From: Dastarcus helophoroides
Taxonomy: Eukaryota; Arthropoda; Insecta; Coleoptera; Bothrideridae
Direction: 5' to 3'
DNA: 64,000 nucleotides
Assembly: GCA_028583605.1 (NCBI GenBank)
Contig: CM053336.1
Span: 23,359,004 to 23,423,003, forward strand
Below, piece after piece: positions 2,455-46,383 of the stretch. Positions within the stretch are counted from its first letter, which is position 1, and the number at the start of each line of letters is the position of its first letter. The notes under the pieces were generated by a model. It ran no database searches, had not been told where the DNA came from, and saw nothing but the letters and a program-made list of their open reading frames with translations. A program made the position numbers and the translations under genes.

Positions 2455-2721
2455 TGTTAGCTATCTAAGATATTCAGTGTAAGAAATGGTCAGATCGCCA
2501 CTTGACCACCGGAAGCATGTGGACTGACCAGCGACCCTATTAGAACAATAGAACACAAGTGGGGTAAAACTTGGTGTTTTGAAGTAGTCTGTAGGTTTTG
2601 TACAAAAGAATTTGCATCCCAGATCTCGGCGATGTCAGTTCAGTTAATAAACGTCGTTAAGTTTACATAAAACGCGTTTCATTTTATCGGAGCTATCAAG
2701 ACCTGATAGTGATCCCGAACA
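2455..2721 (+). repeat. 5' LTR of BEL/Pao element B
   Basis: The 267-bp LTR starts TGTTAGCTATC and ends CCGAACA, the TG...CA form. Its first 83 bp recur at 6730-6812 as the truncated 3' LTR. The end is set by the primer-binding site two bases downstream. Confidence 0.88.
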
Positions 2722-2957: not shown

Positions 2958-4131
2958 ATGAGTTTATCGCAATTAAAAGTAGAGCGTGGAAGGGTTAAAG
3001 GAAAGTTGACCAGGTTCCAAACATTTTTAGACAGTTTCCGAGAATCCGCGAATGATTTGTCTGATTTAAAGGAACGCTTTGCACTAATAGTGGAAACGTT
3101 GAATCAATTTGATATCATACAGGACCAGATAGAGAATTTTCAAACAGACACAGATGAAATGATAAAGAACAGTGGCATCGAGATCGTGTCGAGTTTGAAA
3201 ATTCTTACTATCGCCTAACGAGTCGCGTGCGCGATATTCTGGCCAGGCTTACCCCTATCGTACCCGCGAGTCAAAATCAAGAAAATGCGGCCGCGAATGG
3301 CAATGGAGTGACAAATAATGTAATCATTCAGCCTAGCGAAATTTATTTCAATTTGCCTAAAATAACAATACCTAGATACTCTGGTGACTATTCAAAATGG
3401 ATGTCCTTTGCTGATTTGTTTAAAACTTTAATTCATAACAATAATAAGTTGAGCGATGCACAAAAACTGCATTATTTAAAATCATGTTTAGACGGCGATG
3501 CCAAACAAACTGTCGATAATTTGACTATATGCGAGGCAAATTATCAAATAGCGTGGGATTTGTTAGAAGGTCGATAAAAAAATGACAAGCTTATTGTCCA
3601 GGAATACATTGGGGCAATATTAATCATTTCACCGGTTACAAAAAACGGAAATAGTCTGAGAACGTTGCTAAATACTTTAAACCTAAACTTAGAGGCGTTA
3701 AAGGCATTTAACATAGGCGTAGATTCGTGGGACGCGATTATTGTACAGATAATTTTGTCAAAATTTGACTATGTAACGTTGAGGAAATGGGAAAGCACAC
3801 TGAACTCCTCGATTCCAACAATTTCGCAGATAAAATTATTTTTAGATAAAAGGTGTCGGTTTTTGGAATCGCTAGACATGGCAAATAAAACAAGCAATAA
3901 AGTGAATCAACCGGTAGCATCATTCAAACCAAAATTTAACATAAGAGCACAAACAGGCAATTCGCATGTTGCAACAAATAAACCATTTCATTGTTATCAT
4001 TGTAAAGAGCAACATTCAATTTTTCAATGTGCCGAATTTTTAGCATTGTTGGTAGGTGACCGAATTAGGCGAGTGGATCATTTGCGCTTATGTAAAAATT
4101 GTTTAAGGGCAAACCACACAATAGCAAATTG
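2958..4131 (+). pseudogene. BEL/Pao gag (element B), broken
   Basis: Gag forms the particle and binds the RNA. An ATG at 2958 opens a coiled N-terminal region (residues 1-86), typical of BEL Gag. A frameshift near 3180 moves the reading to the frame of 3227-3577, which holds LPKITIPRYSGDYSKWMSF, the conserved central Gag stretch. A TAA at 3575 interrupts it, and the same frame resumes to 4131 with WDAIIVQIILSKFDYVT and the zinc knuckles CYHCKEQHSIFQC and LCKNCLRANHTIAN. The last cysteine of the second knuckle is lost where a second frameshift leads into pol. Two frameshifts and one stop make it non-functional. Confidence 0.85.
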
Positions 4132-4169
4132 ACGGCAAGTGCCGCAAATGTAATCAAAACCATCATTCC

Positions 4170-6395
4170 TTGTTACACGTAGAAGTAGCTGATGGTCCAA
4201 ATCAGATCTCATTAATCAGTCAGCATTCGTCAAGATCGGATTATTGCCGGCATAATGACGAAATATTGTTGTCAACGACTGTAGTCCATATTCGTGCACA
4301 AGACGGAAAATTGATTAATTGTCGAGCTCTCTTAGATATGGGCTCACAATTACACTTTGCGACAGAAGCTTTGTGCAAAAAACTTAAAGTGAAAGTGTCA
4401 CGATCAAACCAAATTGTATGTGGCATTGGACTAACGAATCAGAATATATCCCAATTAGTGAATATCAAGATAACTTCTCGAGTAAATCAGCAGTCCTACT
4501 CAATTAATTGTTTAGTCGTTCCTCAGATGACGGGTAACGTCCCTAATTATTCTATTAAAAGGTCTAATTTCAAGATACCGAACAACTTGATTTTAGCAGA
4601 TCCGCAATTCTACGAAGCTAGTTCCATTGATTTGTTGATAGGTGCAGAATTATATTGGGATCTCATATGTGATAGAAGTTTTCGCTTAGACCATTCTCAA
4701 CCATATTTCCAACAGACACAATTGGGTTGGATTGTGGGTGGCGCTATGAAAAGTGAAAGTAACGGGAAACATTCGCTTTGTCATTTAACCTTGAAGCCAG
4801 CAGAAATGGCCCTTGAGAATGCAGTTCAGAAATTCTGGGAACTAGAGGGAGTTAGGACCGACACAATTCTCACAGAAGAGGAACCAACATGTGAAACCCA
4901 CTTCCGAAAAACTACCGAACGACAGAAAACTGGTCGATTCGTCCTAAAACTACCATTTATCGATAACATTGATTTAGGTGCGTCGAGAGAAGGCGCCTTA
5001 AAGCGATTTGTTACTTTAGAAACAAAACTAAAGAAAAATCCGAAGCTTAAGAATCAGTATTCGGATTTCATGACAGATTATTTAAATTTAGGTCATATGG
5101 AAAGGGTTCCATTAAATGAAATTGATAATGCTCGAGCTCATTATCTCCCTCACCACGCAATTTTGAAGGAATCAAGTGTAACAACAAAATTAAGAGTGGT
5201 GTTTGACGCATCCGCAAAAACGATCACTGGTCGCAGCTTAAATGATAATTTACTCTGCGGTCCTGTTGTTCAAGATGATCTCTTCACTATTTTAATGAGA
5301 TTTCGGTGCTACCAGTACGTGTTGACCGCCGATATAGGCAAAATGTATCGGCAGATTGCGATAAATGCGTGCCATACTGATTATCAAAGAATATTTTGGC
5401 GTTTCAATGCTGATGAACCAATAAAAACATTCAGATTGACCACTTTGACATATGGCACGAAACCAGGCAGCTTTTTAGCCAGTCGTTGTTTAAAGGAACT
5501 TGCCAAATCTCATGTTCCACAAATGGGAAACCTACCCAAATCAAGAACCGAGCCTTTAAGCCCTTTTTTAAGAACCGGAGTTGATTACGCAGGCCCGATT
5601 TTGATTAAAGATACAAGAGGGCGAGGTAAGGCCAAGTCTAAGGCTTATATTGCCATATTCGTTTGTTTTGCCACTAAGGCCGTACATATCGAACTTGTGG
5701 AGGATCTTACGATGAAATCTTTTGTAAATTGCCTGAAAAGATTTATAGCGCGTCGCGGACATGTCTCCGATATCTATTGTGACAAACAAATTAATTTTCA
5801 TTTTAATCCTCCACGATCTGCTCATTTTGGGGGTCTTTGGGAAAGAGGGGTCCGTTCAATCAAATTTTATTTAAAACGAACAGTCGAAAATGCTTCTGTC
5901 ACTTTCGAGGAGATGTATACTCTATTGACCCAAATCGAAGCAATTTTGAATTCGCGACCATTAACCCCTTTATCCTCCAATCCCAACAATTTCTCAGTCC
6001 TTACACCGGCTCATTTCCTTATTGGAGAATCGCTAATGGCTCCAGTGGAACCCGATCTAGAATGTGTAAAATTGAACCGACTTTCCCGATGGCAAAGAAT
6101 AGAACAGCTACGTCAACATTTTTGGAAAAGATGGACCCGCGATTATCTTCAGCAACTACAAGCTCGAACTAAGTGGCAACAACAGGTTGATCAATCGCCA
6201 GTTCGGTTGGACGCCATGGTAGTTTTAATCGATGAAAATCTACCACCAATTCGATGGTCGCTTGGAAGAATCGTGGAAACTCACCCAGGCAGAGACGGCA
6301 TTATTCGCGTCGCCACAGTGCGAACAAAGTGCGGATTAGTGAAAAGGGCAGTCTCCAAGGTGTGCGTGTTACCTGGAGTGAGCTCATCGGAGTGA
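4170..6395 (+). pseudogene. BEL/Pao pol, 741-codon ORF with internal deletions
   Basis: A single open frame holds an aspartic protease (RALLDMGSQ, D near residue 56), the reverse transcriptase start (LRVVFDASAKT, then ADIGKMYRQI and LTTLTYGTKP, about residues 345-430) and integrase (GVDYAGPILIK, then IYCDK, then FGGLWERG). Two segments are missing without loss of frame. Near residue 447 (about 5511) the text jumps from the RT fingers straight to the integrase zone, removing the YVDD palm, RNase H and integrase zinc finger. Near residue 540 (about 5790) the spacing between the second catalytic Asp and the Glu is shortened by some 40 residues. The first codon is TTG following gag, so no separate start is implied; BEL elements usually make one Gag-Pol protein. 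Confidence 0.88.
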
Positions 6396-6729: not shown

Positions 6730-6812
6730 TGTTAGCTATCTAAGATATTCAGTGTAAGAAATGGTCAGATCGCCACTTGACCACCGGAAGCATGTGGACT
6801 GACCAGCGACCC
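6730..6812 (+). repeat. Truncated 3' LTR of element B
   Basis: The 83 bases match the first 83 bases of the 5' LTR (2455-2537) and then switch to CTCTAGGAGAGTTCCC, an inverted piece of the hammerhead repeat. The remaining ~184 bases of the LTR are missing. Confidence 0.9.
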
Positions 6813-6920
6813 TCTCTAGGAGAGTTCCCAGAAGACAAGGATTCTATAATGCACCAATAGGTGGTAGTACTAAAAAGTCACTCGCTCGACGCCTGTGAAT
6901 GTTTTAGTACTTACTTGTCG

Positions 6921-7020
6921 GAACATTTATTAGCATTCGAGTTGGATATACCAAACTGACGAGATCTAACAATATCGAAACCGGTATTTGGTTTCCAAAC
7001 TTCGAATCTAATAAATGTTC
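6921..7020 (+). ncRNA. Type I hammerhead ribozyme, unit 1 (stem II mismatch)
   Basis: The outer helix pairs GAACATTTATTAG (6921-6933) with CTAATAAATGTTC (7008-7020), then ATTCGA/TCGAAT, TTGGA/TCCAA and ACCAAA/TTTGGT. The core is CTGACGA (6956-6962), stem II, GAAA (6977-6980), then CCGG and the cleavage triplet GTA before 6987. Stem II reads GATCT-AACA-ATATC, so one of five pairs is broken compared with unit 2. Activity is probably reduced. Confidence 0.82.
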
Positions 7021-7297
7021 AAACCTATTGGTCTGTGCATTATAGAATCCTTGTCTTCTGGGAACTCTCCTAGAGAGCAACCGCTTCGCTAGGTGGCAGT
7101 GTTTCAACTGTTGGTAGTTCAGCTACCTATGATTCACTATGCACGCCTAGAAGGCTGCATGAATTTGTAGTCTAGGTTGCATTCTTCTTGCATACGACAT
7201 TGTTGGCGATGGCCATAGTTTCTCTATGGACCAATAGGTGGTAGTACTAAAGAGTCACTCGCTCGACGCCTGTGATTGTTTTAGTACTTACTTGTCG

Positions 7298-7397
7298 GAA
7301 CATTTATTAGCATTCGAGTTGGATATACCAAACTGACGAGATCTAACAAGATCGAAACCGGTATTTGGTTTCCAAACTTCGAATCTAATAAATGTTC
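7298..7397 (+). ncRNA. Type I hammerhead ribozyme, unit 2 (intact)
   Basis: The conserved core is complete: CTGACGA (7333-7339), stem II GATCT-AACA-AGATC (five perfect pairs), GAAA (7354-7357), a very short stem III made of the palindrome ACCGGT, and cleavage expected after GTA at 7363. Stem I is long: ACCAAA/TTTGGT, TTGGA/TCCAA, ATTCGA/TCGAAT and a perfect 13-bp closing helix, with internal loops between. A loopless stem III is unstable in one molecule and favours a double-hammerhead dimer, as in the newt and cave-cricket satellite ribozymes. The role would be cleaving a multimeric transcript into unit-length RNAs. Confidence 0.9.
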
Positions 7398-7570
7398 AAA
7401 CCTATTGGTCTGTGCATTATAGAATCCTTGTCTTCTGGGAACTCTCCTAGAGAGCAACCGCTTCGCTAGGTGGCAGTGTTTCAACTGTTGGTAGTTCAGC
7501 TACCTATGATTCACTATGCACGCCTGGAGGGCTGCATGAATTTGTAGTCTAGGTTGCATTCTTCTTGCAT

Positions 7571-7937
7571 TTGCTGATGAATTTAAATTTGTTAAAATAG
7601 TGCTACCTGCAACATGTTTGCTACTATCTTCTAAATCACACTGCATTTTTATGTGCTTTTTCATTAATGCGATTATATTAAAATACCTCTTTTCAGTTTC
7701 ATCTCTTTCGACAATGTTATCTTGGTCTAAAAACTCAGGTTTAGTTTGCAATTTGTCGAACACAACCAAATCATCTTCTACTAACTTTAATCGAACTTTT
7801 AACTGATTCATATCTTCCCTATTTTGTTCTAGAGCAAGAACATTTTCTAATCGAGTAAGTTTTCTTTCTAGTACACCTCTTTTAAATCCTAATTTTCTAA
7901 TTTCGTCGTGATTATTTTGATTATTACCTTCGGTCAT
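7571..7937 (-). pseudogene. BEL/Pao gag N-terminus (element A)
   Basis: From the ATG at 7937 the minus strand encodes about 122 residues of a highly charged, coiled Gag start (MTEGNNQNNHDEIRKLGF..., with KRGVLERKLTRLENVL and ERDETEKRYF). This resembles the N-terminal region of element B's gag and of BEL elements generally. The open frame continues to 7500, but everything below 7571 is hammerhead-repeat sequence, so the natural reading ends there. The rest of gag up to the zinc knuckles is missing, although the knuckles reappear at 2450. Confidence 0.8.
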
Positions 7938-8205
7938 TGTTTTATGTTTAAAGATTAGCCCGTTTTATTAATATTCGTGAAATTATATCGTGGATTCGAG
8001 ATACGTATTTACTTCGTTTTTTGTAAACAGCAGACATAAGAGAAATGTGATAAGCGATCCTGAAATTCCTAATTCGATAATTAAAAACGTAATAAATAAT
8101 CGAAAAATTTGCGAGAAAAACGAGTATAAATGTCTAAACTATGCGATGTCTGGATGAAATTATATAAAGGAAAATTATGGAATAGACTCCCAGATAGATT
8201 GTTGT

Positions 8206-8223
8206 GATTTCGGTGTTTCGCCA
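8206..8223 (-). promoter_or_regulatory. Probable primer-binding site of element A
   Basis: On the minus strand TGGCGAAACACCGAAATC begins one base after the proposed LTR end, ~270 bases upstream of gag. TGG at the start fits pairing with the CCA end of a tRNA. I could not name the tRNA with confidence. Confidence 0.5.
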
Positions 8224-8224
8224 C

Positions 8225-8444
8225 TGTTGTAGATCCTACAGCCTTGTTTCCATGTTCTTCGTGAATCGAGATAGGGCTCGATATGGTCCAAAAAATAACG
8301 TGTAATTTCGAATTGATAGGTCGCTGGATTTAGAACACTGTGCTAATTTGATTATTATTTATTTTTAACTATAATAATTATGGTGGCGTTGCTTGCCCCG
8401 AATATGCTACGTGAAATTCTTACAACGATCTTGCGGCTGTAACA
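8225..8444 (-). repeat. Probable 5' LTR of BEL/Pao element A
   Basis: Read on the minus strand the 220 bp start TGTTACAGCC and end CTACAACA (TG...CA), directly followed by a TGG-starting primer-site candidate and then the gag leader. The partner LTR is outside the window, so the borders rest on these signals only. Confidence 0.55.
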
Positions 8445-8711
8445 AGTTGCCGTCTGCTTATTTTAATACTTTTTTGTTGCATTTCTTGACTCAGGAGCCA
8501 TGCCAATTAAGTAACATATTTCAAATTCTTACATATAGCAGTAGCTCCTTTTCATATAGAAATAGGAAATAGATGTAAAACTTGGTTAGTGGGTGAGAGC
8601 TTTATTATATAAAACGCAGTTGAAATCTAATAAATTTAAAACTTTACTAAGGGAATTGTGGGACTACTGTGAACGTTTTTAAGAACGGACGAAAAATGTT
8701 TTAAACATTTA
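8445..8711. other. Short AT-rich gap, nothing recognised
   Basis: I see no ORF, RNA or repeat here. It lies between the proposed LTR of element A and the foldback-arm copy, and probably represents the old insertion target. Confidence 0.5.
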
Positions 8712-9222
8712 CTTACAAAGAAAGGTCGCGAAGTGTCCGGCGCCGATTTTGCTAATTTTTGGATATGTTTTAGAGGACCAAAATCTAAGGGACACGTATT
8801 TTTTTAATTGGCTGATAAACGGTCTTAATGGTAGTTTTACCCCTTCAAAGTTGGGGCAAAAAATGCAGATTTTGCTGTTTCTCACATACCAAAAATAATG
8901 TTTCAGTCGTTTCTTTTCCCAAAAGTTTTGTTTTGACGAGAAATAAAAGAAAAAAAAATTCAAAATTTTCCCACCCCCCTCATGAGGGCAAACTACCCCA
9001 TTTAGAAGTTATGTAATCATAAAAATGGTACTTAGGTCAGCAAAATTTTGAAAAAAATATATGTTATTTTATGCACCAAAACTAATTTCACCTTTTTTTG
9101 AATTTAGTCGAAAAAAATTTTTTTGGGGGTAAACACCACTTACACGAATACGTATATGATAGAATGTATTTTTATAATTTTTGTTTTATTTTTTTTTTCT
9201 GAAGCGAAATATTTCGACGAGA
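8712..9222 (+). repeat. Solo arm fragment of the 43.8 kb foldback element
   Basis: About 510 bp, beginning ACAAAGAAAGGTCGCGAAGTG, match the first unit of the left arm of the large palindrome at 43761-44270 and, inverted, its right end at 45880-46383. Shared landmarks in order are GTCCGGCGCCGATTTTGC, CCCACCCCCCTCATG, GGGGTAAACACCACTT and GAAGCGAA-TATTTCG. It is a single arm unit without the partner. It has no coding content; open frames here are chance. Confidence 0.85.
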
Positions 9223-9368
9223 AAAGTGGCGTGAAAAGCTGCCTATGAAGTTTTTGATAGATACATAGTGTCAAATAGTTTTAATGTATTTGAAGTTTTA
9301 AAGTTAATTCTATTTTGACTATCGACTCATCCTACGAAGATTGCAGACCTGCTACATAGTTTGAGAAT

Positions 9369-9535
9369 ATTAAAATTGTTATTAATAAAATATGATAATA
9401 TTATGAAACATTTTTTAAATATGACTACGTGATATTTAAATTTATATGTTTCATAATGTTGACAACTATTATTAATAAAAATTTAAATACTTTTAAAGTG
9501 GATCGCAGAAATGTCAAAATAAAAATAATAAATAT
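9369..9535. repeat. Rearranged fragment of the 9.8-10.2 kb hammerhead repeat
   Basis: GACTACGTGATATTTAAATTTAT (about 9423-9445) is the inverted form of ATAAATTTAGATATCACGTAGTC near 10094-10116, while the next ~80 bases (TTTCATAATGTTGACAAC ... AAATACTTTTAAAGTGG) match 10130-10200 in direct orientation. It is thus a scrambled second copy of the same repeat. Confidence 0.65.
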
Positions 9536-9824
9536 AATATTTCCGAGCTATAAGTGTCTTCCATGAAGAATAATCATATTCCTTTAACGCAACGAACTGA
9601 CTCGACAAATGGTGAGTGCTTCTATCTACTAACACAGAGTTCTACGTGCTACTAAGCTGAAGACCTTTCGGCGGTTAGGAACACTAATCACCAAGAGCTC
9701 GACCGATCCAGAGTTCGACCCACAAGTGCATTTCAGTGTCGGAACGGAAGCCCTTGAACTAGTTGGATCAGGCTTTAAATATTTAAATTTTTGCCATCGT
9801 AAATTATTGATTGTTTAGTCATGT
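9536..9824. other. GC-richer unassigned stretch
   Basis: This ~230-base block is less AT-rich than its surroundings and contains AGAGTTCGACCCAC, which resembles an RNA polymerase III B box. A tRNA-derived SINE head or the 5' leader of the hammerhead repeat is possible, but no A box or poly-A end could be fixed. Confidence 0.25.
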
Positions 9825-10210
9825 TAAAATTTTTTATGTACAGATATTTCAGTTTATTATTTTTAAGTACTTCCTTCTCATTGTATGCACTGCTGACGAG
9901 CTCAAATAAGAGCGAAACATCGATGTCCAGTGCTATAACTTTTTTTACATGTTTTATATTTTTTTATTTTTATAATTTATTAAAAAAAATTCGTGTACAA
10001 TGTTAGTCTTCTATGTTTCATTTTTTTTTCTATTCTATATAAAGTAAACTAACCTATTTTTGTGTCAGTTATCAGAAGGTGACGTTGTAAATAAATTTAG
10101 ATATCACGTAGTCATATTTCAAAAAGTGTTTCATAATATCATTAACTTTCATTAGTAAAAAATTAAATACTTCCAAACTGGGTCTCAGAAATCTTAAATA
10201 AAATTAATTA
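9825..10210 (+). mobile_element. Dispersed hammerhead-containing repeat, plus copy
   Basis: About 385 bp align, with many substitutions, to 48361-48756 on the minus strand. Common blocks are TACTTCCTTCTCATTG-like sequence before the ribozyme, the ribozyme itself, an A/T run, TCTATTCTAT.TAAA, GGTGACGTT, TATCACGTAGTCATATTTCAAA and AAACTGGGTCxCAGAAAT. No ORF is carried. Penelope-like retroelements and retrozymes are the known carriers of such type I hammerheads in animals; I cannot decide between them because no reverse transcriptase is adjacent. Confidence 0.7.
9887..9933 (+). ncRNA. Type I hammerhead ribozyme (second family)
   Basis: A complete 47-base core: stem I GCACTG (9887-9892) pairs with CAGTGC (9928-9933), 6 of 6; CTGACGA at 9893-9899; stem II GCTC-AAATAA-GAGC, 4 of 4; GAAA at 9914-9917; stem III is the palindrome CATCGATG plus the A-T pair; the cleavage triplet is GTC, with the cut expected after 9927. 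All invariant hammerhead bases are present. The self-complementary stem III again suggests that two molecules fold together. The sequence is unrelated to the ribozymes at 6.9-7.4 kb outside the core. Confidence 0.9.
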
Positions 10211-10640
10211 ATAATTAATATATTAATTAAATTGATTGTTTACTACAGGAAATGGTACAAACTCTAGAATCAATTTTAACATTTATTCTAAGTAATTTAA
10301 GTACACTATGAATTTCAAATTAAAAAGTATCTAAGTACCTAAGTATCTAAAATTACGAAAAAATAGAGAGATTATTATGAAACTCGTTTTTATTTTAATC
10401 GGCTGTTTCCTTTAAAAAAACAGCTTTTCGACGTTTTGTATTTTTCAGACACTCTGTACATTATAAAACTAATTTTAAAATGTACCTTTATAGAATTCCT
10501 ATCCATCACCAAAACAAAACTTTTTTCAAATTAAATAGTGTAAGCATAATCGTCCGTGTCGTACGTCGTGAATAACCCGGTATTGACCATGGCGCCATGC
10601 GTAATTGATTATCATTTTACTAGATCGTTTACCAAGATCT
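10211..10640. other. AT-rich 3' flank of the first IR gene
   Basis: I see no gene or repeat that can be named here. The stretch lies downstream of the IR stop (minus strand), so any polyadenylation site of that gene would be in its right part; I did not find an unambiguous one. Confidence 0.4.
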
Positions 10641-12461
10641 CTAATCTGCTGGAGGGTAAAGCAGTTTAATTAAAAAATTAACTTTATTGAAAAATGACGT
10701 ATTCTTCGAAATCCAGTTTACAACGTATTCAAGAATTAAGCAAAGCAAGGAAACGACGTAACCCAATATTAATAAATCAAAGAGCTCAATGTAATGTTTC
10801 ACACTTAATTCTTTTATTTTAGGTTGCTCTTTAGGCGATCTGCTATTATTTCTGTTGCTTTCCCTGATGTCACTCCACCATTTGTCAACCAATCCTTTTT
10901 CTATAACTTCTTGGGTCCAAAAAAATACTTGCCGCCTCATCGGAAAATCTTTTCTCAAGTAGTAAGTGACAAATAAAGTTAAGTAAGGCATCGTATTAGA
11001 TATATTATCTATGAGTGCATTCTCTGTTGGTAATGATATTAAATCAGACATAAACGAAAATATCAAATTTTCCTGCGCTAAAGCAACTCTTTTGGTAAGT
11101 TCATTAATAAGATGAACATTGGTTTTCAGATTGATTGGTTTGCCTCTGTGCTGCCTTCTTATCTGTTCGTTTAAATTTGCTGTAACAAAATGTACTAATA
11201 ATAGTCGTTCTGTATGCCAGGAGTAGTTGAGCCCCAATGGTTTTCTTCCCCTGATGTCGTCCAAGTCTCTAATTGGTGTTTCATAGAGATCTGAGGAGAA
11301 AATACTACTTAACTTGCCTAGGTATATGCTATCAATAATCAAACAAAAGAGGGAGAAAAAACTGAACAATATACGAAGTGTTATAAATTTTGAAGACATA
11401 TTGGAACAGTAGCCATATAACGACGTAAAAATGTCAATCGGAATTATCCAGTAGTCGATTTTTTTATCAAGCAATTTACAAGAAATTAAATATCCTACCA
11501 TCATTAAGAACCAACCGTAAACAACCTTTTTCCATAAATCGAAAGTAAATGGTTTCCACAATTTGTTGTAAGAGATAATTAATTTAGGTTTACTCGCAGA
11601 AAGACGGATCTCGTTTTTAAATATAACAGGCCCGAAGTCAAGCGGCACCGCTTCGGTATCATTCATAAATAAATGTCCTATTGCCATATCTCCTCTTCCT
11701 TCATAAACGTGATTTACTAGTTCATAAAATGATCCATTAGTCAAAAACTCATGCTGAAAATTAACACTGTTCTGAAGCAAAATGGAAAGTTCGGATTTTT
11801 CAGCTACATTTCTGATGAGTGACACCATGAGCCCCGGATTTATAACTTTGTTTACTTCAATGACAAAAGGAGGTGATACAGTATAATAAAATCGCAATTG
11901 GCAGACGTTGTCATCCAAGGAGATGTATTTGTCGTAGCAACGATCGAAACCAAGTAAATCGCAAATGTAAACGTTATTTGGACAACGATGTCTAACTTTT
12001 TGATTGTGCACCAGAATGGACTTTTTGGCGAAAACTACCAGGTTTGTTTCTGCAATGCCCATTTTCCATGTAAATGTAAAAATTTTTCTCACTAAAGTTT
12101 TGCCAAGCAAAGTCGTATTTTTCGTCGCTAATATTATTGTACTTGATGGCATATTTCGTAAGTTTTGGACGTGGTAAAATATTTCGTCTACATTCGTAAT
12201 CATCACTAACCTGGTCCAATCAGTGAAAGCATTTTTAGATACCTGCAAATTGCACTCTTTAAAAGTGCTTAGGGTCATCAGTTGATATGAAGTTCTAAAG
12301 GCTAAATTAATTTCAGTTGGTACAAATATGAGTAGCTTTCTATTTTCGTTTATTAAATGCTCTATGTTATTCGAGTCTATATTTATTTCCATTTTGAATT
12401 TGAAAAGATGGATGCTGCCGATTACTATATAAAAGTAAGCCAGGCACACAGGGCGAATCAT
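10641..12461 (-). CDS. Divergent ionotropic receptor 1 (chemosensory channel)
   Basis: An intronless 606-residue member of the insect IR family, the variant glutamate-receptor channels used for taste and smell in sensory neuron membranes. A hydrophobic start (residues 1-20) looks like a signal peptide. Residues ~185-300 form ligand-binding half S1 (SPPFVIEVNKVINPGLMVSL; VPLDFGPVIF). SYNKLWKPFTFDLW leads into M1 (312-328), then a pore loop around TSLYGYCSNMSS, M2 (363-384) ending IYLGKLSSIFS (the IR equivalent of SYTANLAAFLT), S2 (385-550) and M3 (560-583) with a short cytoplasmic tail. I chose the ATG at 12461 instead of one 19 codons upstream because the paralogue at 36871 starts at the aligned position. 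Ligand and exact orthology cannot be read from sequence. Confidence 0.93.
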   Translation of the reverse strand: MIRPVCLAYFYIVIGSIHLFKFKMEINIDSNNIEHLINENRKLLIFVPTEINLAFRTSYQLMTLSTFKECNLQVSKNAFTDWTRLVMITNVDEIFYHVQNLRNMPSSTIILATKNTTLLGKTLVRKIFTFTWKMGIAETNLVVFAKKSILVHNQKVRHRCPNNVYICDLLGFDRCYDKYISLDDNVCQLRFYYTVSPPFVIEVNKVINPGLMVSLIRNVAEKSELSILLQNSVNFQHEFLTNGSFYELVNHVYEGRGDMAIGHLFMNDTEAVPLDFGPVIFKNEIRLSASKPKLIISYNKLWKPFTFDLWKKVVYGWFLMMVGYLISCKLLDKKIDYWIIPIDIFTSLYGYCSNMSSKFITLRILFSFFSLFCLIIDSIYLGKLSSIFSSDLYETPIRDLDDIRGRKPLGLNYSWHTERLLLVHFVTANLNEQIRRQHRGKPINLKTNVHLINELTKRVALAQENLIFSFMSDLISLPTENALIDNISNTMPYLTLFVTYYLRKDFPMRRQVFFWTQEVIEKGLVDKWWSDIRESNRNNSRSPKEQPKIKELSVKHYIELFDLLILGYVVSLLCLILEYVVNWISKNTSFFNKVNFLIKLLYPPAD

Positions 12462-12518
12462 AATTTTAAATGTAAGGGTGTAATAGCGCTGAAGAATATT
12501 TTTTTCTCTTTTTTTCAT

Positions 12519-25649: not shown

Positions 25650-26925
25650 TCATTCTATTGGAGGCTTAAGCAATCTAAATAAAAATGGTAGTTTTTCGAA
25701 TAATGCAGTATGTTTCTTGAGCCAATCAACAATGAACTCGACAATCAAGGCCAACAGGGCTAGCGCATAACCCAAAATTAGCATTTGAAAAACCTCAATG
25801 TAATACTTCACATTCAAACTTATCATTTTAGGTGGCTGTTTGGGCAATCTGGTGTCATTCCTGTTACTGTGAACGATGTCTTTCCACCGTTTATCAACGA
25901 ATTTTCTTTTCTATAACTTCTTGAGACCAAAATGATATTTCTTTAGTCAATGGAAAATCACTTCGCAAATAACGAAGAGTGATAAGTATGCCATTGGAAG
26001 AGAAACATTTGCTACCATTGCGTTTTCGGTGGGTAAGGCTACTAAATCTGATAAAAATGAAATTGTAAAATTTTCTTGTGCTGAAGCAATCTCCTTGACC
26101 AGTTTAATCCTGGTGGTATTTATGAGACAAAAATATTTGTCGTAATTTATTGGTGAATATCCGTGTAGTGTTAATACATCATACATCATTGAGATTAGTT
26201 ACTACATAGTGAATTAAACCAATACGCTCTATATGCCAAGTGTACTTTATACCTATGTCTCGGATTCTCGTGGTCCCTTAAATGTCTTTTATAGATGATT
26301 CATAGGGATCCAAAGAAAAAATACTGCTGAGTTTGCTGACGTACATGCTATTTGTAATTACGCAGAAGAGACAGAAAAAGCAAAACAAGATACAAATGGT
26401 TAAAAATTTTGAAAACAGATTATAACAATTACCACATATTGATATAAAAGTATTTATCAGTATCATCCAGTAGTCAATGTTTTTGTCGATAATTTTACAA
26501 GAACCGTAATAACTGAACATCATTAGTAATAATACGTAAAAAAATTTTTTCCACAGATCATAAGTAAATGGTCTCCACAGTTTATTGTAGGCAACAATGA
26601 GTAATGGTATAGTCTTTGTATATAGCAGGTCCAACTTGGAGAGGCACGGTTTTGGTGTCATTCATAAATAGATGTTCTAAAGCGATATCCCCCTTTCCTT
26701 CATAAACGTGATTTATTATTTGATTAAGTGAGCCATTCGTTAGAAACTCATGTTGAAAATTGATGCTGTCTTGTAGTAGAATGGAAAGTCCAAATTTTTC
26801 AGCAACTGTCTTAGTGAGTGACATCAATGGCCCTGGATTTATATCTGAATCTAAATAAATAACAAACGGAGGAGATATGATGTGAGCTAGTCGCAGTTGA
26901 CCTGCTTTCCATCCAGACTGGCGTC
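25650..26925 (-). pseudogene. Ionotropic receptor pseudogene between IR1 and IR2
   Basis: Minus-strand fragments align over most of the channel part of the two intact IRs: LRLAHIISPPFVIYLD and SDINPGPLMSLTKTVAEK (from about 26925), GPAIYKDYT, then VAYNKLWRPFTYDLW, the membrane region (YVLLLMMFSYYGSCKI, ILFCFFCLFCVITNSMYVSK), then LVALPTENAMVANVS and VKYYIEVFQMLILGY, ending LLKPPIE. The N-terminal ~185 residues are missing. A small deletion/frameshift after GPAIYKDYT (about 26600), a stop after SSIKDI (26278) and further shifts near 26190, 25947 and 25848 destroy the frame. It is on the same strand as its neighbours and is a dead tandem paralogue. Confidence 0.9.
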
Positions 26926-31412: not shown

Positions 31413-31541
<129 letters not shown>

Positions 31542-35029: not shown

Positions 35030-36871
35030 CTAAGATCTTTTATTGGTTGGAGGTTGAAGCAGTTTAATTAAAAATTCTACTCTTTCAAAAATTGTCGTAT
35101 TTCTTTCAAACCAGGTTACAACAAATTCAAGAATGAAGCAAATTGTAGAAACGACGTAACCCAAAATTAATATCTCAAAGAGCTCAGTATAATGCTTGAT
35201 ACTTAACTGCATCATTTTTGGTTGTTCTTTTGGCAATCTGCTATTATTTCTGTTGCTTTCACCAATGTCGCTCCACCATTTGGCAATGAAACCTCTTTCT
35301 ATAACTTCTTGCGACCAAAAATACATTTCCCGTTTCATTGGAAAATCGTTTCGCAGGTAGTAGGCAACAAACAAGGTCAAATATGGCATGGTATCAGTGA
35401 GACTATCTACAATTGCGTTCTCGGTTGGTAATGATATCAAATCTGATATAAACGAAATTGTCAGGTTTTCTTGTGTTAAAGCAACCCGTTTGACAAGCTC
35501 AAAGCTGGTGGCATTAATAAGACGAAAATTTTGTTTTATATTCATTTGCCTGCCTGCATTGTTCCTTCTAAACTTTTCATTCATGTTTTCAGCAACAAAG
35601 TGTACTAATAAGAGGCGCTCGGTATGCCAAGAGTAATTCACCCCCAACGTTCCTCTTTTTCTGATGTCCTCTAAATTTCTGATTGGTTTCTCATAGGTAT
35701 CTAAAGCGAAAATACTACTGAGCTTTCCTACATAAATGCTATCCACAATCAAGCAAAAGAGAGAAAAAAAGCAAAATAATACACGAAGACTATTGAATTT
35801 CGAAGACATATTGGAACAGTAGCCATATAACGATGTAAAGGTGTCAATGAAAATCATCCAATAGTCGATCTTCTTCTTAAGCATTTTACAAGAAACCAAA
35901 TAACTGAGCATCACCACAATCCAACCATAAATAATCTTTTTCCATAAATCGAAAGTAAATGGTTTCGTTAATTTGTTATAAGAGACAATTAATTTAGGTT
36001 TACGTGCAGAGAAACCGATGTCATCTTTAAATATAACCGGACCGAAGTCAAGAGGAACCGTGTTGGTGTCATTCATAAATAAGTGTCCTATTGCCATATC
36101 TGCTCTTCCTTTGTAAACGTGATTTACTATTTGCTGAAATGAGCCATTAGTCAGAAATTCTTGCTGAAAATTAATGCTGTTCTGAAAAAGAATCGAAAGG
36201 CCACATTTCTCAGCTACGCTTCTGATAAGCGACACCATTATCCCAGGATTTATAACTTTGCTTACATTGATAACAAATGGAGGAGATTGAATGTGAACTA
36301 ATCGCAATTGACAAATAGTTTGATCCAGGGAGAGGAACTTTTTGTAGCAATGATCATAATTTATCAGATCACAAATGTAAATGTCATTAGAACAACGGCG
36401 ATGAATTTTTTGATTGTGCATCAGAACAGATTTTTTGGCAAAAACTAGCAGTTTGGTTTCTGAGAAGCCCATTCTCCAAGTAAACGTAAAAATTTCTCTG
36501 ACTAAATTTTTGCGAAGTAAAGTGGTATTTTTTGTCGTCAATATTATTGTGGGTGATAACATGTTTCTTGAGCTTTTAACGTGATTAAATATCTCGTCTA
36601 GATTCGCAACCAACAGCAACCTGGTCGATTCAATGGTTTTATCCTTTGATATCTGAAACTTTTTTTCGTCGAATTTGCTCAGAGTCCTCATTTGATAGAA
36701 GAATTTATGAGCCAAATTAATATCCGCTGGCCCAAATAAAAGTAGTTTTGTGTCTTCGTTCATAAGATGTTCTACGTCATTTGAATCGGTATTTATTTCC
36801 ATTTTAAAATTGTAAGGATCAACTGTGGCGATTGTTATGCAAACGTACAAGATGCTCACAAGAGCAATCAT
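35030..36871 (-). CDS. Divergent ionotropic receptor 2 (chemosensory channel)
   Basis: An intronless 613-residue IR, co-linear and clearly homologous (most residues alike) with the receptor at 10641-12461. The start ATG gives MIALVSILYVCITIATVDPY, a good signal peptide. S1 holds QSPPFVINVSKVINPGIMVS and VPLDFGPVIFKDDIGFS; SYNKLTKPFTFDLW precedes M1; the pore region is TSLYGYCSNMSS; M2 ends DSIYVGKLSSIF; S2 carries SDLISLPTENAIVDS; M3 is YTELFEILILGYVVSTICFI; the tail ends LIKLLQPPTNKRS. It is expected in dendrite membranes of chemosensory neurons, normally together with an IR co-receptor. Very even conservation with IR1, including the S2 domain, suggests both are functional. Confidence 0.93.
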   Translation of the reverse strand: MIALVSILYVCITIATVDPYNFKMEINTDSNDVEHLMNEDTKLLLFGPADINLAHKFFYQMRTLSKFDEKKFQISKDKTIESTRLLLVANLDEIFNHVKSSRNMLSPTIILTTKNTTLLRKNLVREIFTFTWRMGFSETKLLVFAKKSVLMHNQKIHRRCSNDIYICDLINYDHCYKKFLSLDQTICQLRLVHIQSPPFVINVSKVINPGIMVSLIRSVAEKCGLSILFQNSINFQQEFLTNGSFQQIVNHVYKGRADMAIGHLFMNDTNTVPLDFGPVIFKDDIGFSARKPKLIVSYNKLTKPFTFDLWKKIIYGWIVVMLSYLVSCKMLKKKIDYWMIFIDTFTSLYGYCSNMSSKFNSLRVLFCFFSLFCLIVDSIYVGKLSSIFALDTYEKPIRNLEDIRKRGTLGVNYSWHTERLLLVHFVAENMNEKFRRNNAGRQMNIKQNFRLINATSFELVKRVALTQENLTISFISDLISLPTENAIVDSLTDTMPYLTLFVAYYLRNDFPMKREMYFWSQEVIERGFIAKWWSDIGESNRNNSRLPKEQPKMMQLSIKHYTELFEILILGYVVSTICFILEFVVTWFERNTTIFERVEFLIKLLQPPTNKRS

Positions 36872-38463
36872 ACTTTTAGTATAATCGAGAAAAGAAGTTT
36901 ATACAATACCATCAACTGAAAAAAATATGAAAATCAATTAAGGAAGTAGGTAGGTTTCCTTCAATTTATCTATTATTTTGACAAATTGGTCCTTAGGGGC
37001 CATAAATCATCGTAGTAAGTGATGGTAATTTTATATTAATCTAAGACTACCATCACTAATATACTTTATTACATACTTATCGTATTATTTAATGCAAAAT
37101 GATAGTCGTTACTTTTTTTTATCTCACTGTAAAAAGAACAGGACTTCATTATTTTTCATAGCTATTTATGCAAATATGTATTTAGTATCATAGTGCCTCA
37201 TTATGAGGTAGACCTTTCTAGCTCCCACATTTTCCTAGAATTCATTTTAAATCCTGGGTTTTACACTTATAAGAAACCTTTCAGCACAAAAGCAAGTTTA
37301 TAGGTGTAATATTATTGATATTTGCAAAAAATGGCAAAAGAGCAGCTTAAACTGATTATTTTTTTCGTTGTATTTAAATAGAGTACATTTCACAGCTTAC
37401 CAATTTATGTCACTTATAAAACCATATTTTCTGTTTACGAAAGTTGGCAGCTATAGAGTTGACACAATCCTAAACTAATTTAAGATCATGTATAATGCAT
37501 AGGTACAGTTAAGAAGCTTGAGGGTTCCAAGTTCCCACTGAGCCCGAATTAGACCTCCCCCAAAAACTCTTTGAATATTAGCACCCATACACACCCTTTG
37601 ACACTTAAGGAATTTAAAGTCACATAAAATATAAAAAGCAACAGAATGCGCCTATCACCAATGTTTAAGGCAAAGTTTAACTTGAATCTCGATGTTTAAG
37701 GAAATACAATAGGATTCTGGGTTAGAGAGGGCCGATTAGAGTATACATTGAGTGTACGCTTTAAGCGAATAACAAGTACAGGGTCCCTAGTAATTTCTGT
37801 TGACTAAAGAAAAATTGAAAACATTCAAAATAACCAAAATTTAAAGACTAAAACCAAAATTGTCAGAGGCCTTTTTTTAATTATTCTCATTTTTTCTTTA
37901 AGCATCATTCTAAAAATATTTATTTTTTCTCCCACCTCGTGTCAATTTTTTTCCTATAAATATCGAATTAAAACACAAAATTACCAAGTATTTATTTTAA
38001 TCTAAATTTTAGTAAAGTATAGTCAAACATTTAAAAAAAACTCCCACTTTGATAAAAAAGTTCTTACAAAATCTACTATAGTTTGACCAGGTTCCAATTA
38101 TTTTAAAAAATTCGTTCAAATATTTAACACTAAAAAAAAAAGGAATTTTGTAGAGAAATTCTCCTAGATTTAATTTTTTAATTTTTTTTTTAATATGGAT
38201 TTCAAAGCGGATTTTAAATCTTAATCTGCAAATGTTGCTTTTTTAAATTCGAACTTAAACAAACTAAATAATTGTAAGCTTAAACCTGTAACTTTAATAG
38301 ATTCGAATATTAAGCTTTTTGCAGGAAAGGTTAAAATTCCTAGAAGTCGAAATTTTGAAATATAATTAAGGCGTTCAGTGCAAAAGTGACCTAACCAATA
38401 TATTAAGATATTTCCTGATTTTCAGTTTATTTTATTGAGAATATTGAAATACTGAATTTGTCG
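36872..38463. other. AT-rich spacer upstream of IR gene 2
   Basis: No gene is recognised. The first ~100 bases must contain the promoter of the minus-strand IR gene, but I see no convincing TATA element. Beyond 37850 the sequence drifts into AAAATTT-rich low-complexity DNA like that at 57-61 kb. Confidence 0.4.
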
Positions 38464-38633
38464 CCTGAAACCTAGAAAGATTAAAAAACACAACAAAAGT
38501 TGCTCTAACGCGTTTCGACAGCCAAGCTGTCATCTTCAGAGATAAACTCATTTTCTCTCTGAAGATGACAGCTTGGCTATCAAAACGCGTTAGAGCAACA
38601 TTTGTTGTGTTTTTTAATCTTTCTTGGTTTCAG
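38464..38633. repeat. Near-perfect 170-bp palindrome with hammerhead-like cores
   Basis: Arms of about 78 bp (CCTGAAACC-AGAAAGATTAAAAAACACAACA...GCTCTAACGCGTTT...CATCTTCAGAG and its mirror) flank a ~15-base centre. Each arm holds CTGAAGA, a GACAGC-TTG-GCTGTC stem, (G/A)AAACGCG and AGAG, which is the layout of a hammerhead ribozyme, with one extra base after CTGAAGA. The minus strand of the left arm keeps GAAA; the plus strand of the right arm has AAAA. The sequence is probably a decayed hammerhead repeat in head-to-head copies. Confidence 0.7.
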
Positions 38634-40812
38634 GGGACAAGTTCTGTATTTCATTTTTTGAGGATAACCAAGGAACAGTTCTTTCCACCAAACTGAGAAT
38701 ATTGATATCTGTAACTGCAACCGTTGACAGTGCAACGCAAACTCATATTCAATGCTTTTACTACTTAGCAGATGGCAGCAGTAATTCATTTTTGCTTGAT
38801 ATATTAAAAATTAGACTTTTCTTTGCTGATTCTCATTGTATTTCCATGGATTCACCTAGGCCACTTTTGCAAAAAACGCCTCAATTTATTTTAATTTCAT
38901 TGTATAAAGATTTGGACTGCGCCTAAATTTAGACTTTTCTCTTGAACTTTCGAGATTGGAGCAGGTATTTTGATTACAATTTTTAATATGTGAACATTTT
39001 GAGGTAAAAATCCAACAATTGTTGAAAGCAAAGCAACTTCAACTTCTAAAATTTTCTAGGAGAACACTGACATTTCGAAATTGACTACAATTTTTAGGAA
39101 AGAAAGTTAAAATTTTTATTTTAAACTCGACATTTTAGAAAAAAATAAACTGTAATTAAAAAGCTTGTAAGAAAATAAAATTCTAAGCAAAACTCAAGCC
39201 GTATAAAAGGTCTTACTTTAAACACAATAGCTAAATTTTAAGTTTAAAGCCAAAGTTTTAATGAAAAATTCACAATTTTAATCTGTATGACAAAACGGGA
39301 TACACAGTATACGCATTTAATAAAAAACGGAATTTTAGGTTTTAAACGTAAAAAATCTAAGAAACAATTTGGAATTTCTAAATTGTGGTGGAAATCTTCA
39401 GAAAAATGTCAAAATTCTTAGAAAAAATCAAAAGACCTAAATATTGGTTAAGTTTAAATTGGGAAGTTCCTTTTTTTTACAAATTAACATTTCAAATCAA
39501 ATTAACTCTTAAAATTTCGATCTTAATTTTAAAATCTTAATATTAGATTAAAATATTAGAGTATTCTGCTTTATTTTTTTTTAAATTTTGGCGTTCAACT
39601 CGAAGTTTCTAAAATGAATTAGAAATAATGCTATTTTGAGTACAATTTTCAGAAATAATTTTTTTCCAAATGTCCAAATTTTAGAAAATAATCATCTAAA
39701 AAAAATGTATTTTAAATAGGTTTTAAACAAGTTGAATTTTGGAATAAATCCAAATTTCTAAAAGAAGTTAAAAATTTAGGATTGGAATTAAAATGTTTAG
39801 GGCAAAAATTGAAGCAAAAGAGGATGTTTACCTCCAAACTCATATTGTGAGAAACATTAAAATTTTCAGTTATGATTGTGAAAGACAAGTCGAAATTTTG
39901 GAAAAAGAGTAAAAATGTAAAGCAACAAGTTTAAGAAAATACTTCAAATTTCCAGAAAAACTCGAACTCTACAAAATGATCTTTTATTTCAAGGGAATCT
40001 TGTTGCTTCTCCAACGTTTATGGAGAACAAACCACTGAAATTTGCCGTTAATTTATGAGAGTCGTAGTGGGGTATTAACCTGCGCTATCAAATGTGATTG
40101 AGCTTTATCCAATTTACTAAAACTTTCACCAAGTTTGTAACCGCGTTTAGTACTACATTAACAGAGCCGATGCTAGCAGATTGGTGAAAGACAACATTAT
40201 CAGTCCTTTCTGTAGACAAAAAGGGTCCGAATATATTTTGGCCACAAAAAAAAAGTGGGCATAGATGAGTAAATATTTAAGAAATTCGGAAATGTCAAAT
40301 ACGTTTTGGGTTTAAATTTCTAATCAAAATTTTAGATCACAATAGGTTCGTTTGAAGTGCGTAACCCTAGATGTCGAAAGGAAAGACAAAAAACTGGTAA
40401 AATAGATAACAAAGGAAAGTTTTGTTTTTACGTGGAAGGATTTTTGAAGTAAATTCTATAATAAAGTCGTAAAATGCAAAAGTGTGGCAATTTCTTCACT
40501 TTTGCCCTGCATCGCGAAAACGGATACAAATCTCCTCCTAAAGCGCGATAATCGACGCGAAAGGGATATAGCAACGACAAATAGAGTGGGATGCCTATGT
40601 TTTTTACAGGGTATCATTAGAAATGAAAATTTTATGTGTCGTTAAATGGGTGAAGTTCTCATAATTTGGTCGAGTTTTACCCTAGCAATTTATAGGTAAA
40701 GAGTTAAAAAGTCACATTTGGTCTAACAGACGTAAAAGTGAGATGAGGCGACATGTATTACATCTCAAAACGTAAGAATATTCTTGGAGCCTGCAGGTTG
40801 CGGCCTTTTTAA
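38634..40812. other. AT-rich low-complexity spacer
   Basis: Long runs of the type AAAATTT(C/T)(T/A)GA recur without fixed period from about 38980 to 39990. A ~100-codon plus-strand frame at 38624-38926 overlaps the palindrome and has no recognisable domain. No gene is supported. Confidence 0.4.
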
Positions 40813-43507: not shown

Positions 43508-43760
43508 GGTAGATTCAGCACCACTTTTCCCTTACGGTTTGCTACAGTGGTTGTAAATAAGAATGTTTTGCTGAGTAGTAAATATCTTTATTAGCAAACT
43601 TACTCCAAAAATGGATTTCAAGACAAAATTGTTAGCTAAAAATCAGTCTACAATTTGTGCAGGTTCGATTTCTCTGACAATTATTGGAAACCATTTAAAT
43701 ATCTTTAATTAAAAGTATATTCTGCAGTTTTAAAGTTTCAGCTATCATCTCACATTACTG

Positions 43761-46383
43761 ACAAGGAGAGGTCGCGAAGTGTCCGGCGCCGATTTTGCTA
43801 ATTTTTGGATATGTTTTAAAGGATCAAAATCTAAGAGACACGTATTTTTTTTTTATCGGCTGATAAACGGTTTTAAGGGTAGTTTTACCCCCTCAAAGTT
43901 GGGGCAAAAAATGCAGATTTTGCTGTTTCTCACATACAAAAAATGATATTCGAGTCGTTTCTTTTTTCAAAAATTTTGTTTCGACGAGAAATATAAGAAA
44001 AAAAATGTTTCAAAATTTTCCCACCCCCCTCATGGGGGCAAACTACCCCATTTAGAAGTTTTTTAATCATAAAAATGGTAATTACGACAGCAAAATTTTG
44101 AAAAAAATATATGTTTTTTTATACACCAAAACTAATTTTACCTGTTTTTGGATTTTATCGAAAAAAAAATTTTTGGGGGGTAAACACCACTTACACGAAT
44201 ACGTATATGATAGGATGTATTTTTAGGATTTTTGTTTTATTTTTTTTTCTGAAGCGAAGTATTTCGTCGAGAAACTAATAAAATAATTTTTTAAGATTTT
44301 TTCGGTGACCCCTTATCCCCACCCTCCACCCTTCCCTTATAAGAGGCTGAGCTATCTACCTAAAAAACCGGAAAATGCGAGATTATTATGATCCATCTAC
44401 TATCTATATACACCGAAAAAAAGTTTACCAAATTTTTTTACCCCCACCCCTCCTGATAGGGGTAAATTACCCCCTTATGAAATTTTTAATTAACAAGGAA
44501 ATAGTCATTATAACAGGTCAATTTTGAAAAATAAATGTTATTTTATACATCAAAATTAATTTTACCTGTATTTGGGTTTGGGTAAAGGAAAATATTTTGG
44601 GGGTGAACACCCTTAACGCAAATATTTATATACAATAGGAGATATATTTGTATAATTTTCGGCTCGTTATTTTTGAAACGAATTATTTTAAAGAAGGTAG
44701 AAAAATATTATTTTTAAATTTTGGTTTTACCGTTCCCACCCTTCGTGTTGGCATACCGGTAGAATGAGCCAGTTAGCTATCTACTTGAAAAATTGGAAAT
44801 TCGAGATCATTGCTGTCTCTCTAGATACCACAAAACAGAGCTTAGAAAGGTTTTAAATTTTTGCATTTCCCATCCCAGGTGACTTATCCTTCTGATAGAA
44901 ATAGGACGCGAGGTGTGGCTGGAAAAATTCGGAAAAATTATTTTTATTGTTTCTTGTTGAAATATTTCGTTCCAGAAAAAAAGAAACGAATATCTTTACC
45001 GCCATAATAATATGCACTTAAATGTTTTGGTAAATTCCCATATTTCTTGTGTAGGTATATCTAATATACAAAAATTCTAAATTTTTATAAAGTTCAGGCA
45101 ACTGACCGCAGTTTTTATATAGATATTTTATACACATATTTGCTCTAAAGGGTGTTTACCCCCAAAATTTTTCTTCGACAAACCCCAAAAAAATTCAATA
45201 AAATAAGTTTTGGTTATAAAATATAGTGTCTTTTTTTTCAAAATTTTACTGTTATAATGACAATTTTTTGAATACTTAAAAACCTCAGAAAGGAGTAGTT
45301 TATCCCCTTACGAAGGTGCAAAAATTTAGAATTTTTTTCGGTGTATAAAAAGAGATCGTAATGATCTCGAATTTTCCGATTTTTTAAGTAGATGACTCAA
45401 CCTCTGGTAAGATAAAGTGGAGAGAGAGGAAGAGAGGTGACTGGAAAAGTTCAAAAAAATTAATTTTATAATTCCTTGTTGAAACGAAGTATTTCAGATA
45501 AAAAACGAATTAAAAATCATAGAAATACATCCTATTATATACGTGTTTGACCTAAAGGATGTTTACCCCTAAAATATTTTCCTTTACCAAAACATAAATA
45601 AAAGTAAAATTAATTTTGATGTATAAAATAACATTTATTTTTCAAAATTTAGCTGTTATAATGACTATTTATAGGGGTAATTTACCCCTATCAGGAGGGG
45701 TGGGGTTAAAAAAATTTGGTAAACCTTTCTTTTGGTGTATATAGATAGTAGAGGGATCATAATAATCTCGAATTTTCCAGTTTTTTAAGTAGGTAGCTCA
45801 CCCTGCTATAAGGGAAAGGTGGAGGGTGGGGATGAGGGGTCACCGAAAGAATCATTAAAAAATTAGTTTTTTAGTTTCTCGTCGAAATACTTCGCTTCAG
45901 AAATAAAATAAAACAAAAATTATAAAAATACATCCTTTCATATACGTATTCGTTTAAGTGGTGTTTACCCCCAAAAAAATTTTTTTCGACACAATCGAAA
46001 AACAGGTAAAATTAGTTTTGGTGTATAAAATAACATATATTTTTTTCAGAATTTTGCTGACGTAATTACCATTTTTATGATTAAAAAACTTCTAAATGGG
46101 GTAGTTTGCCCCCATGAGGGGGTGCGAAAATTAAAAAAAAAAAATTTTTCTTTTATTTCTCGTCAAATCAAAACTTTTGGAAAAAAAACGACTCGAATAT
46201 CATTTGTGGTATTCGAGAAACAGCAAAATCTGCATTTTTTGCCTCAACTTTGAGGGGGTAAAACTACCCTTAAAACCGTTTATCAGCCGATAAAAAAAAT
46301 ACGTGTCTCTTAGATTTTGGTCCTTTAAAACATATCCAAAAATTAGCAAAATCGGCGCCGGACACTTCGCGACCTTTCCTTGT
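43761..46383. mobile_element. 2.6-kb foldback element (giant imperfect palindrome)
   Basis: The whole 2623 bp is a palindrome centred near 45.07 kb. The ends are ACAAGGAGAGGTCGCGAAGT and, inverted, ACAAGGAAAGGTCGCGAAGT; arms of ~1.1 kb pair along their length (for example CCACCCTCCACC... at 44320 with its mirror at 45820, and TTGGGGGTGAACACCC at 44600 with its mirror at 45555). Each arm is built of two or three ~450-510-bp modules that each end in a GAAGCGAAGTATTTCG-like block. A single module copy is at 8712-9222. No ORF. TGA beside both ends may be a 3-bp target duplication. The superfamily is unknown. Confidence 0.85.

Follow-up and report, generated by a model that had tools for sequence, protein, structure and literature searches.

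A hammerhead-bearing tandem dimer with a fold-back 5′ end, likely an integrated metazoan non-LTR retrozyme, between broken BEL elements

Metazoan retrozymes are 170–400 nt in size and carry type I hammerhead ribozymes; their transcripts self-cleave, host ligases close the products into circles, and these circles are copied into tandem cDNA by a foreign reverse transcriptase, with Penelope-like elements as a suspected source (PMC7229834; PMC7761336). For the step of copying retrozymes into DNA, Penelope-like or LINE enzymes have been suggested, from shared traits only (PMC7229834). Amphibian retrozymes contain hammerheads with a weak helix III that act as dimers (PMC7229834), and dimer action is also described for the hammerheads of Penelope elements, which are described as minimal, without helix III or the loop contacts (PMC7761336). 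In rotifers, Penelope elements often have inverted, shorter 5′ pLTRs with palindromes at the junction, from which the authors infer self-priming, modelled on an antisense template, and one insertion without a target-site duplication (TSD) was joined via microhomology (PMC3846280). Retrozymes have further been proposed to derive from reduced Penelope-like elements (PMC11722881).

The locus described here lies in a 64-kb stretch of DNA, referred to as the window, that has a GC content of 31% and looks like arthropod, probably insect, DNA. Tandem-repeat detection found a 377-bp period with 1.9 copies at 98% in positions 6849–7570. The first unit (377 bp, plus strand) occupies 6853–7229 and starts at ACCAATAGG, the point where a fold-back joins, and the second (341 of 377 bp, plus strand) occupies 7230–7570 and ends at the junction with a flanking minus-strand ORF fragment. 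Alignment of the copies, 6853–7193 with 7230–7570, gives differences at 5 of 341 positions, which bears out the two units of ~340 bp at a 377-bp offset reported in an initial annotation of this DNA. The span given there, 6813–7570, holds for the tandem units, but the sequence from 6812 to ~6852 is not unit sequence and is instead an inverted copy of 7035–7077. A reading of the two copies as LTRs of 345 bp around 32 bp was rejected, as position 6849, where copy 1 seems to start, lies in fold-back sequence, and the ATG shared by the copies under that reading was taken as chance. The five differences point either to divergence after insertion or to a template other than a single-unit circle. Three of them are an A in copy 1 and a G in copy 2 (6875/7252, 7149/7526 and 7152/7529), too few to judge whether the template had undergone RNA editing. 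Metazoan non-LTR retrozymes are characterised by multiple dispersed copies and, when a TSD is present, by a larger one; within the 64-kb window the unit has no second locus, leaving a single locus as the basis for mobility of this family.

The unit contains no ORF, with longest stop-free stretches of 45 aa in sense and 72 aa in antisense, and no ORF was found to leave it. Taken as a 377-nt circle (6987–7363; GC 42%), it has a predicted folding energy of −137.8 kcal/mol, compared to −90.2 ± 5.3 kcal/mol in 100 shuffles (z = −9.0), and 72% of its bases are paired in the predicted fold.

Each unit also encodes, as first annotated, a 100-base hairpin with the hammerhead order; the two lie at 6921–7020 and 7298–7397 (plus strand). 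The order is type I in both copies: CTGACGA, a 14-nt stem II segment, GAAA, and ACCGGT, which begins on the final A of GAAA, followed by an A before the cut. In copy 1, CTGACGA lies at 6956–6962, stem II at 6963–6976 (3 bp, with a mismatch), GAAA at 6977–6980 and the palindromic stem III ACCGGT at 6980–6985, with the predicted cut after A6986. The corresponding positions in copy 2 are 7333–7339, 7340–7353 (5 bp), 7354–7357 and 7357–7362, with the predicted cut after A7363. Cuts at 6986 and 7363 had been proposed previously and are correct for the hammerhead motif. The mismatch in stem II of copy 1 comes from T6973, where copy 2 has G7350, making copy 2 the better ribozyme on paper; the earlier statement that the stems and all invariant bases are visible stands for the core bases and the 13-bp outer stem, with this mismatch as a correction for stem II of copy 1. 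The 101-nt stretches 6925–7025 and 7302–7402 each fold better than all of 200 shuffles (z = −3.95 and −5.65, respectively).

Rfam, to which the initial annotation had looked for confirmation, supplied hammerhead matches but none at the curated threshold. No family reached its gathering score in the window, and the best match of both copies was Hammerhead_HH9 (RF02275), with 34.4 and 27.4 bits against a cut-off of 52 and E-values of 6.9e-5 and 0.012 for copies 1 and 2 over the whole window. A scan at gathering thresholds alone would thus miss these hammerheads, and the E-value mode is needed. Both Rfam and our own descriptor place the hammerhead on one strand only of the unit.

A strict descriptor (the core, at least 3 bp of stem II, at least 2 bp of stem III and at least 3 bp of stem I) identified 4 hammerheads in the 64-kb window, where 60 first-order Markov shuffles averaged 0.017. 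Two of the four, 9893(+) and 48680(−), lie outside the locus annotated initially and belong to a second family, here called family B, for which sequence comparison showed no similarity to the 377 unit. One family B element spans 9826–10207 on the plus strand, with a hammerhead at 9883–9936, a palindromic stem III ACATCGATGT and a predicted cut after GTC; the other copy spans 48363–48758 on the minus strand, with a hammerhead at 48637–48690. The two are 78% identical over ~400 bp, and their ribozymes match HH9 with 39.9 and 36 bits, again below the cut-off of 52. The family B ribozyme did not prove significantly more conserved than its 3′ flank (5 differences in 54 aligned positions compared to 48 in 268, p = 0.16). 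In 4 of the 4 hammerheads the stem III segment is perfectly palindromic, as ACCGGT or ACATCGATGT.

A looser search (CTGANGA...GAAAC with a palindromic stem III) returned the same four along with 48063(−) and 38539(−), where 150 shuffles gave a mean of 0.033. These two, the first with a poor stem II and the second with an extra base, are relics at most. The 48063(−) motif reads CTGACGAAGC...GTCGAAACGTC, which we take to resemble a decayed minimal Penelope-type hammerhead. The region at 38445–38653 is a 209-bp palindrome, 91% self-complementary. One of its strands holds CTGAAGA, an extra T, GACAGCTTGGCTGTC and GAAACGCGT, which together resemble a hammerhead whose stem III is palindromic, and a near-copy of this motif lies inverted alongside; sub-threshold mir-5615 matches occur here on both strands. 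Exact pattern scans of viral contigs with the ribozymes of the 377 unit and of family B and with a piece of the unit gave 0 matches. The scan of genome contigs gave 11 bacterial matches, fewer than the ~30 expected for 17 fixed bases in 257 Gb, and these were taken as chance.

Taken together, the type I hammerhead in each unit (with Rfam scores below cut-off), the tandem dimer, a unit length of 377 bp within the 150–450 bp range, a GC content below 50% (42%), the lack of an ORF and the highly self-paired predicted circle make it likely that the locus is an integrated dimer of a metazoan non-LTR retrozyme, apparently of an undescribed family, and a non-coding parasite of reverse transcriptase. 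The initial suggestion that an ORF-less ribozyme tandem fits animal retrozymes agrees with the published accounts in size, dimer form, hammerhead type, GC content and circle fold (PMC7229834; PMC7761336). As far as seen, the 377 unit would be a new family of a known kind, an assignment that sets its sequence features beside published descriptions, not published retrozyme sequences. The traits of plant LTR retrozymes are not present, as the hammerhead is type I, not type III, and no 4-bp TSD, PBS or PPT was seen on inspection by eye.

The palindromic stem III, on which the initial annotation is silent, raises the matter of how such a ribozyme would cut. Within a single 377-unit ribozyme, stem III pairs over 2–3 bp at most. 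In ViennaRNA ensembles, which leave out loop-loop contacts, the active single-ribozyme fold has a probability of 9e-4 in copy 1 and 2e-3 in copy 2, compared to 0.29 for the HH9 consensus, and makes up 1% and 0.1% of the ensemble for the two family B ribozymes. These figures supersede a constrained fold with an isolated A-U pair imposed on stem III, which placed the active single fold 9.1 kcal/mol higher than the best fold in both copies. A double hammerhead formed in trans, with a 6-bp ACCGGU stem III, lies near the best predicted fold for copies 1 and 2 together (−58.6 compared to −59.6 kcal/mol) and for copy 2 with itself (−63.5 compared to −63.8 kcal/mol). For the 9893 ribozyme with itself the double hammerhead is the best fold (−43.1), and for the 48680 ribozyme it clearly is not (−36.7 compared to −40.9). 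The HH9 consensus control also prefers the dimer in cofolding, so that the dimer argument is not specific, and in the cis transcripts of 718 nt (6853–7570) and 759 nt (6812–7570) the paired double ribozyme has a probability of 0.0. Since stem III is only a palindrome (ACCGGU), cleavage probably needs two ribozymes, and the analogous cases of amphibian retrozymes and Penelope hammerheads make dimer action plausible. If it does occur, a one-unit circle would be protected from self-cutting, and a partner-dependent ribozyme would explain what keeps the circle from cutting open, a question raised for retrozymes in PMC7229834.

The 5′ end of the dimer carries a 43-nt fold-back arm at 6812–6854 (minus strand), which is the exact reverse complement of 7035–7077 and 7412–7454. 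With a small gap allowed, blastn extends the pairing to 6862 (6812–6862 with 7077–7023). The sequence upstream of unit 2 differs from the arm, which places the arm outside the unit. At the switch point, ACCAATAGG at the start of unit 1 can pair with the 9-nt CCTATTGGT at 7023–7031; the arm resumes after four skipped bases, with GT in common, and CT is common to its far end and the LTR beyond it. The simplest reading is that a cDNA 3′ end primed itself, was extended by 43 nt and was joined to the LTR break, and DNA repair without reverse transcription can be another source of fold-backs. A similar structure is seen at 9301–9540, where a ribozyme-less fragment from the family B 3′ region forms a head-to-head fold-back: 9301–9445 is 73% identical to the reverse complement of 10233–10091 (BLAST E = 2.8e-19) and 9414–9540 is 74% identical to 10096–10221 in direct orientation (BLAST E = 5.4e-18), E-values that may be flattered by the AT-richness of the fragment. 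The 43-nt fold-back end is a new observation here; no description of fold-back inverted ends on retrozymes was found in the available text of the literature, including PMC11722881, which is weak evidence of absence.

At its 5′ side the dimer abuts a plus-strand BEL element, whose 3′ LTR begins at 6730, runs for 84 bp and stops at 6813. This stretch is identical to 2455–2538 (plus strand), with which the 5′ LTR of this element opens and which serves as the yardstick for the interrupted LTR. The BEL internal region between them (3158–6395, plus strand) is split over several frames and has Pfam matches to DUF1759 and DUF5641. On the 3′ side lies the minus-strand ORF fragment at 7571–7964, with only a sub-threshold DUF7814 match, which we infer to be the amino-terminal part of the gag of a second BEL element; its later parts would lie at 2443–608 (−), and Pfam finds a Pao peptidase match at 608–988 (−). 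The broken BEL elements that had been noted around the dimer are accordingly seen in the 84-bp LTR stop and in this ORF fragment. The continuation of the LTR (2539–2720, with the end estimated by eye) shares 1 of 171 12-mers with 7571–9000. As the LTR halts at the hammerhead element and its remainder is missing downstream, the BEL 3′ LTR was probably the insertion target of this element, and target sequence beyond its far end was probably lost. A TSD was not recognised at the junctions as read by eye. The 0 of 84 LTR differences has a p of 0.29 at the rate seen between the units, too weak to date the BEL insertion relative to the unit copies.

From these features a course of events can be proposed. 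Read-through dimer transcripts would be cut after 6986 and 7363 to release a 377-nt RNA, which a host ligase would close into a circle, and reverse transcription of the circle or of multimeric RNA would give a cDNA exceeding one unit in length. The 9-nt CCTATTGGT at the end of this cDNA would then fold back on ACCAATAGG, skip four bases and copy 43 nt of the cDNA, and the extended end would be joined to the broken BEL LTR via the 2 nt in common (CT), with part of the target lost. More weakly, the palindromic stem III suggests that the ribozyme would work best when two copies pair, and that a single-copy circle may be spared re-cutting and multimers cut. The copying enzyme would most likely come from a Penelope-like element. 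The fold-back end is consistent with, though no proof of, the published suggestion that retrozymes are moved by Penelope-like enzymes. A stronger version, in which the fold-back 5′ ends in two unrelated hammerhead families are scars of one Penelope-like reverse transcriptase and the palindromic stem III is a switch that lets multimers self-cleave but not the completed one-unit circle, is tentative, and we hold it to be possible rather than probable. Self-priming of the Penelope-like kind leaves head-to-head ends, so that if this version were true the locus would offer direct evidence, in its structure, of what moves retrozymes. A fold-back insertion end would record the act of copying, and such ends can be counted across genomes.

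The same resemblance to Penelope-like elements gives rise to the best of the other explanations, that the dimer is the pseudo-LTR pair of such an element without its ORF. Two direct repeats with a shorter inverted one at the 5′ end are what rotifer Penelope elements show (PMC3846280), type I hammerheads occur in Penelope pLTRs (PMC7761336; PMC11167929), and the stem III here is minimal and palindromic. We find this reading less likely than a retrozyme, though a serious contender: a Pfam scan of 18 distinct ORFs (11 of the 17 that reach 120 aa, plus 7 shorter) gave no reverse transcriptase or GIY-YIG domain, no ORF leaves the unit, and stem I has an HH9-like internal loop, whereas Penelope hammerheads are described without helix III or loop contacts (PMC7761336). 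The distinction matters less if retrozymes are themselves reduced Penelope-like elements, as proposed (PMC11722881).

It is more doubtful still that the dimer is the remnant of a hammerhead satellite array, as in newts and Dolichopoda, copied as DNA during break repair, with the arm made by polymerase template switching. Hammerhead tandem repeats are known as satellites in an insect (PMC2837043), and the 2-nt overlaps at the joints and the missing remainder of the LTR fit break repair. Against this, there are 1.9 copies only and no long array in the window, the fold-back begins at a self-complementary 9-mer, as it would in a folded single strand, and the family B fragment has a similar head-to-head structure. 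Integration of an infectious HDV-like or viroid-like circular RNA would account for a highly paired, ribozyme-bearing tandem unit, but is very improbable given that neither Rfam nor the descriptor finds a minus-strand ribozyme in the unit, that there is no ORF, and that the hammerhead is type I where those of toad and termite HDV-like RNAs are type III (PMC7936874).

The rest of the window contains other repeats and genes. A 2.6-kb fold-back element at 43755–46388 has arms of ~1.07 kb that are 84% identical, with internal sub-repeats, and a single partial arm at 8709–9224 is ~90% identical to its arm. A (TAT)n microsatellite with 43 repeats and 98% matches lies at 31413–31541. Two ORFs of ~620 aa have glutamate-receptor-type channel domains, of which one exceeds the Pfam cut-off and the other falls just short of it, and the ORF at 35030–36898 (−) matches ionotropic glutamate receptors. 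By eye, 10641–12518 (−), 25653–26923 (−) and 35030–36898 (−), comprising two long ORFs and a set of fragments, are alike, and we read the three loci as a probable small gene cluster for divergent ionotropic receptors that includes a pseudogene.

Compared with known systems, the ribozyme has its best Rfam match in Hammerhead_HH9 (RF02275), with which it shares the core, a stem II of 4 bp and an inner stem I of 6 bp that leads into an internal loop; it differs in scoring below the cut-off and in that five stem III positions of the model have no counterpart here. Like the pDo500 satellite of Dolichopoda crickets, for which single and double hammerhead modes have been proposed, the locus is an insect hammerhead tandem repeat, but the ~500-bp repeats of pDo500 make up ~5% of one genome and the present dimer sits at one locus (PMC2837043). 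With Penelope-like pseudo-LTRs it has in common direct repeats with type I hammerheads and a truncated inverted 5′ copy (PMC3846280; PMC11167929), and with one published Penelope case a 5′ junction with microhomology and no TSD (PMC3846280); unlike those elements, no reverse transcriptase or endonuclease ORF was found here, and stem I has the HH9-like internal loop. The fold-back inverted 5′ end sets it apart from metazoan non-LTR retrozymes as these are described, the comparison being one of description, not sequence (PMC7229834). In its other traits the locus resembles them, with tandem units in the 170–400 nt range that occur from dimers upward, a type I hammerhead, low GC, no ORF, no LTR, PBS or PPT, an RNA predicted to be highly paired, and the weak helix III reported for some published members (Cervera and de la Pena, 2020; PMC7229834).
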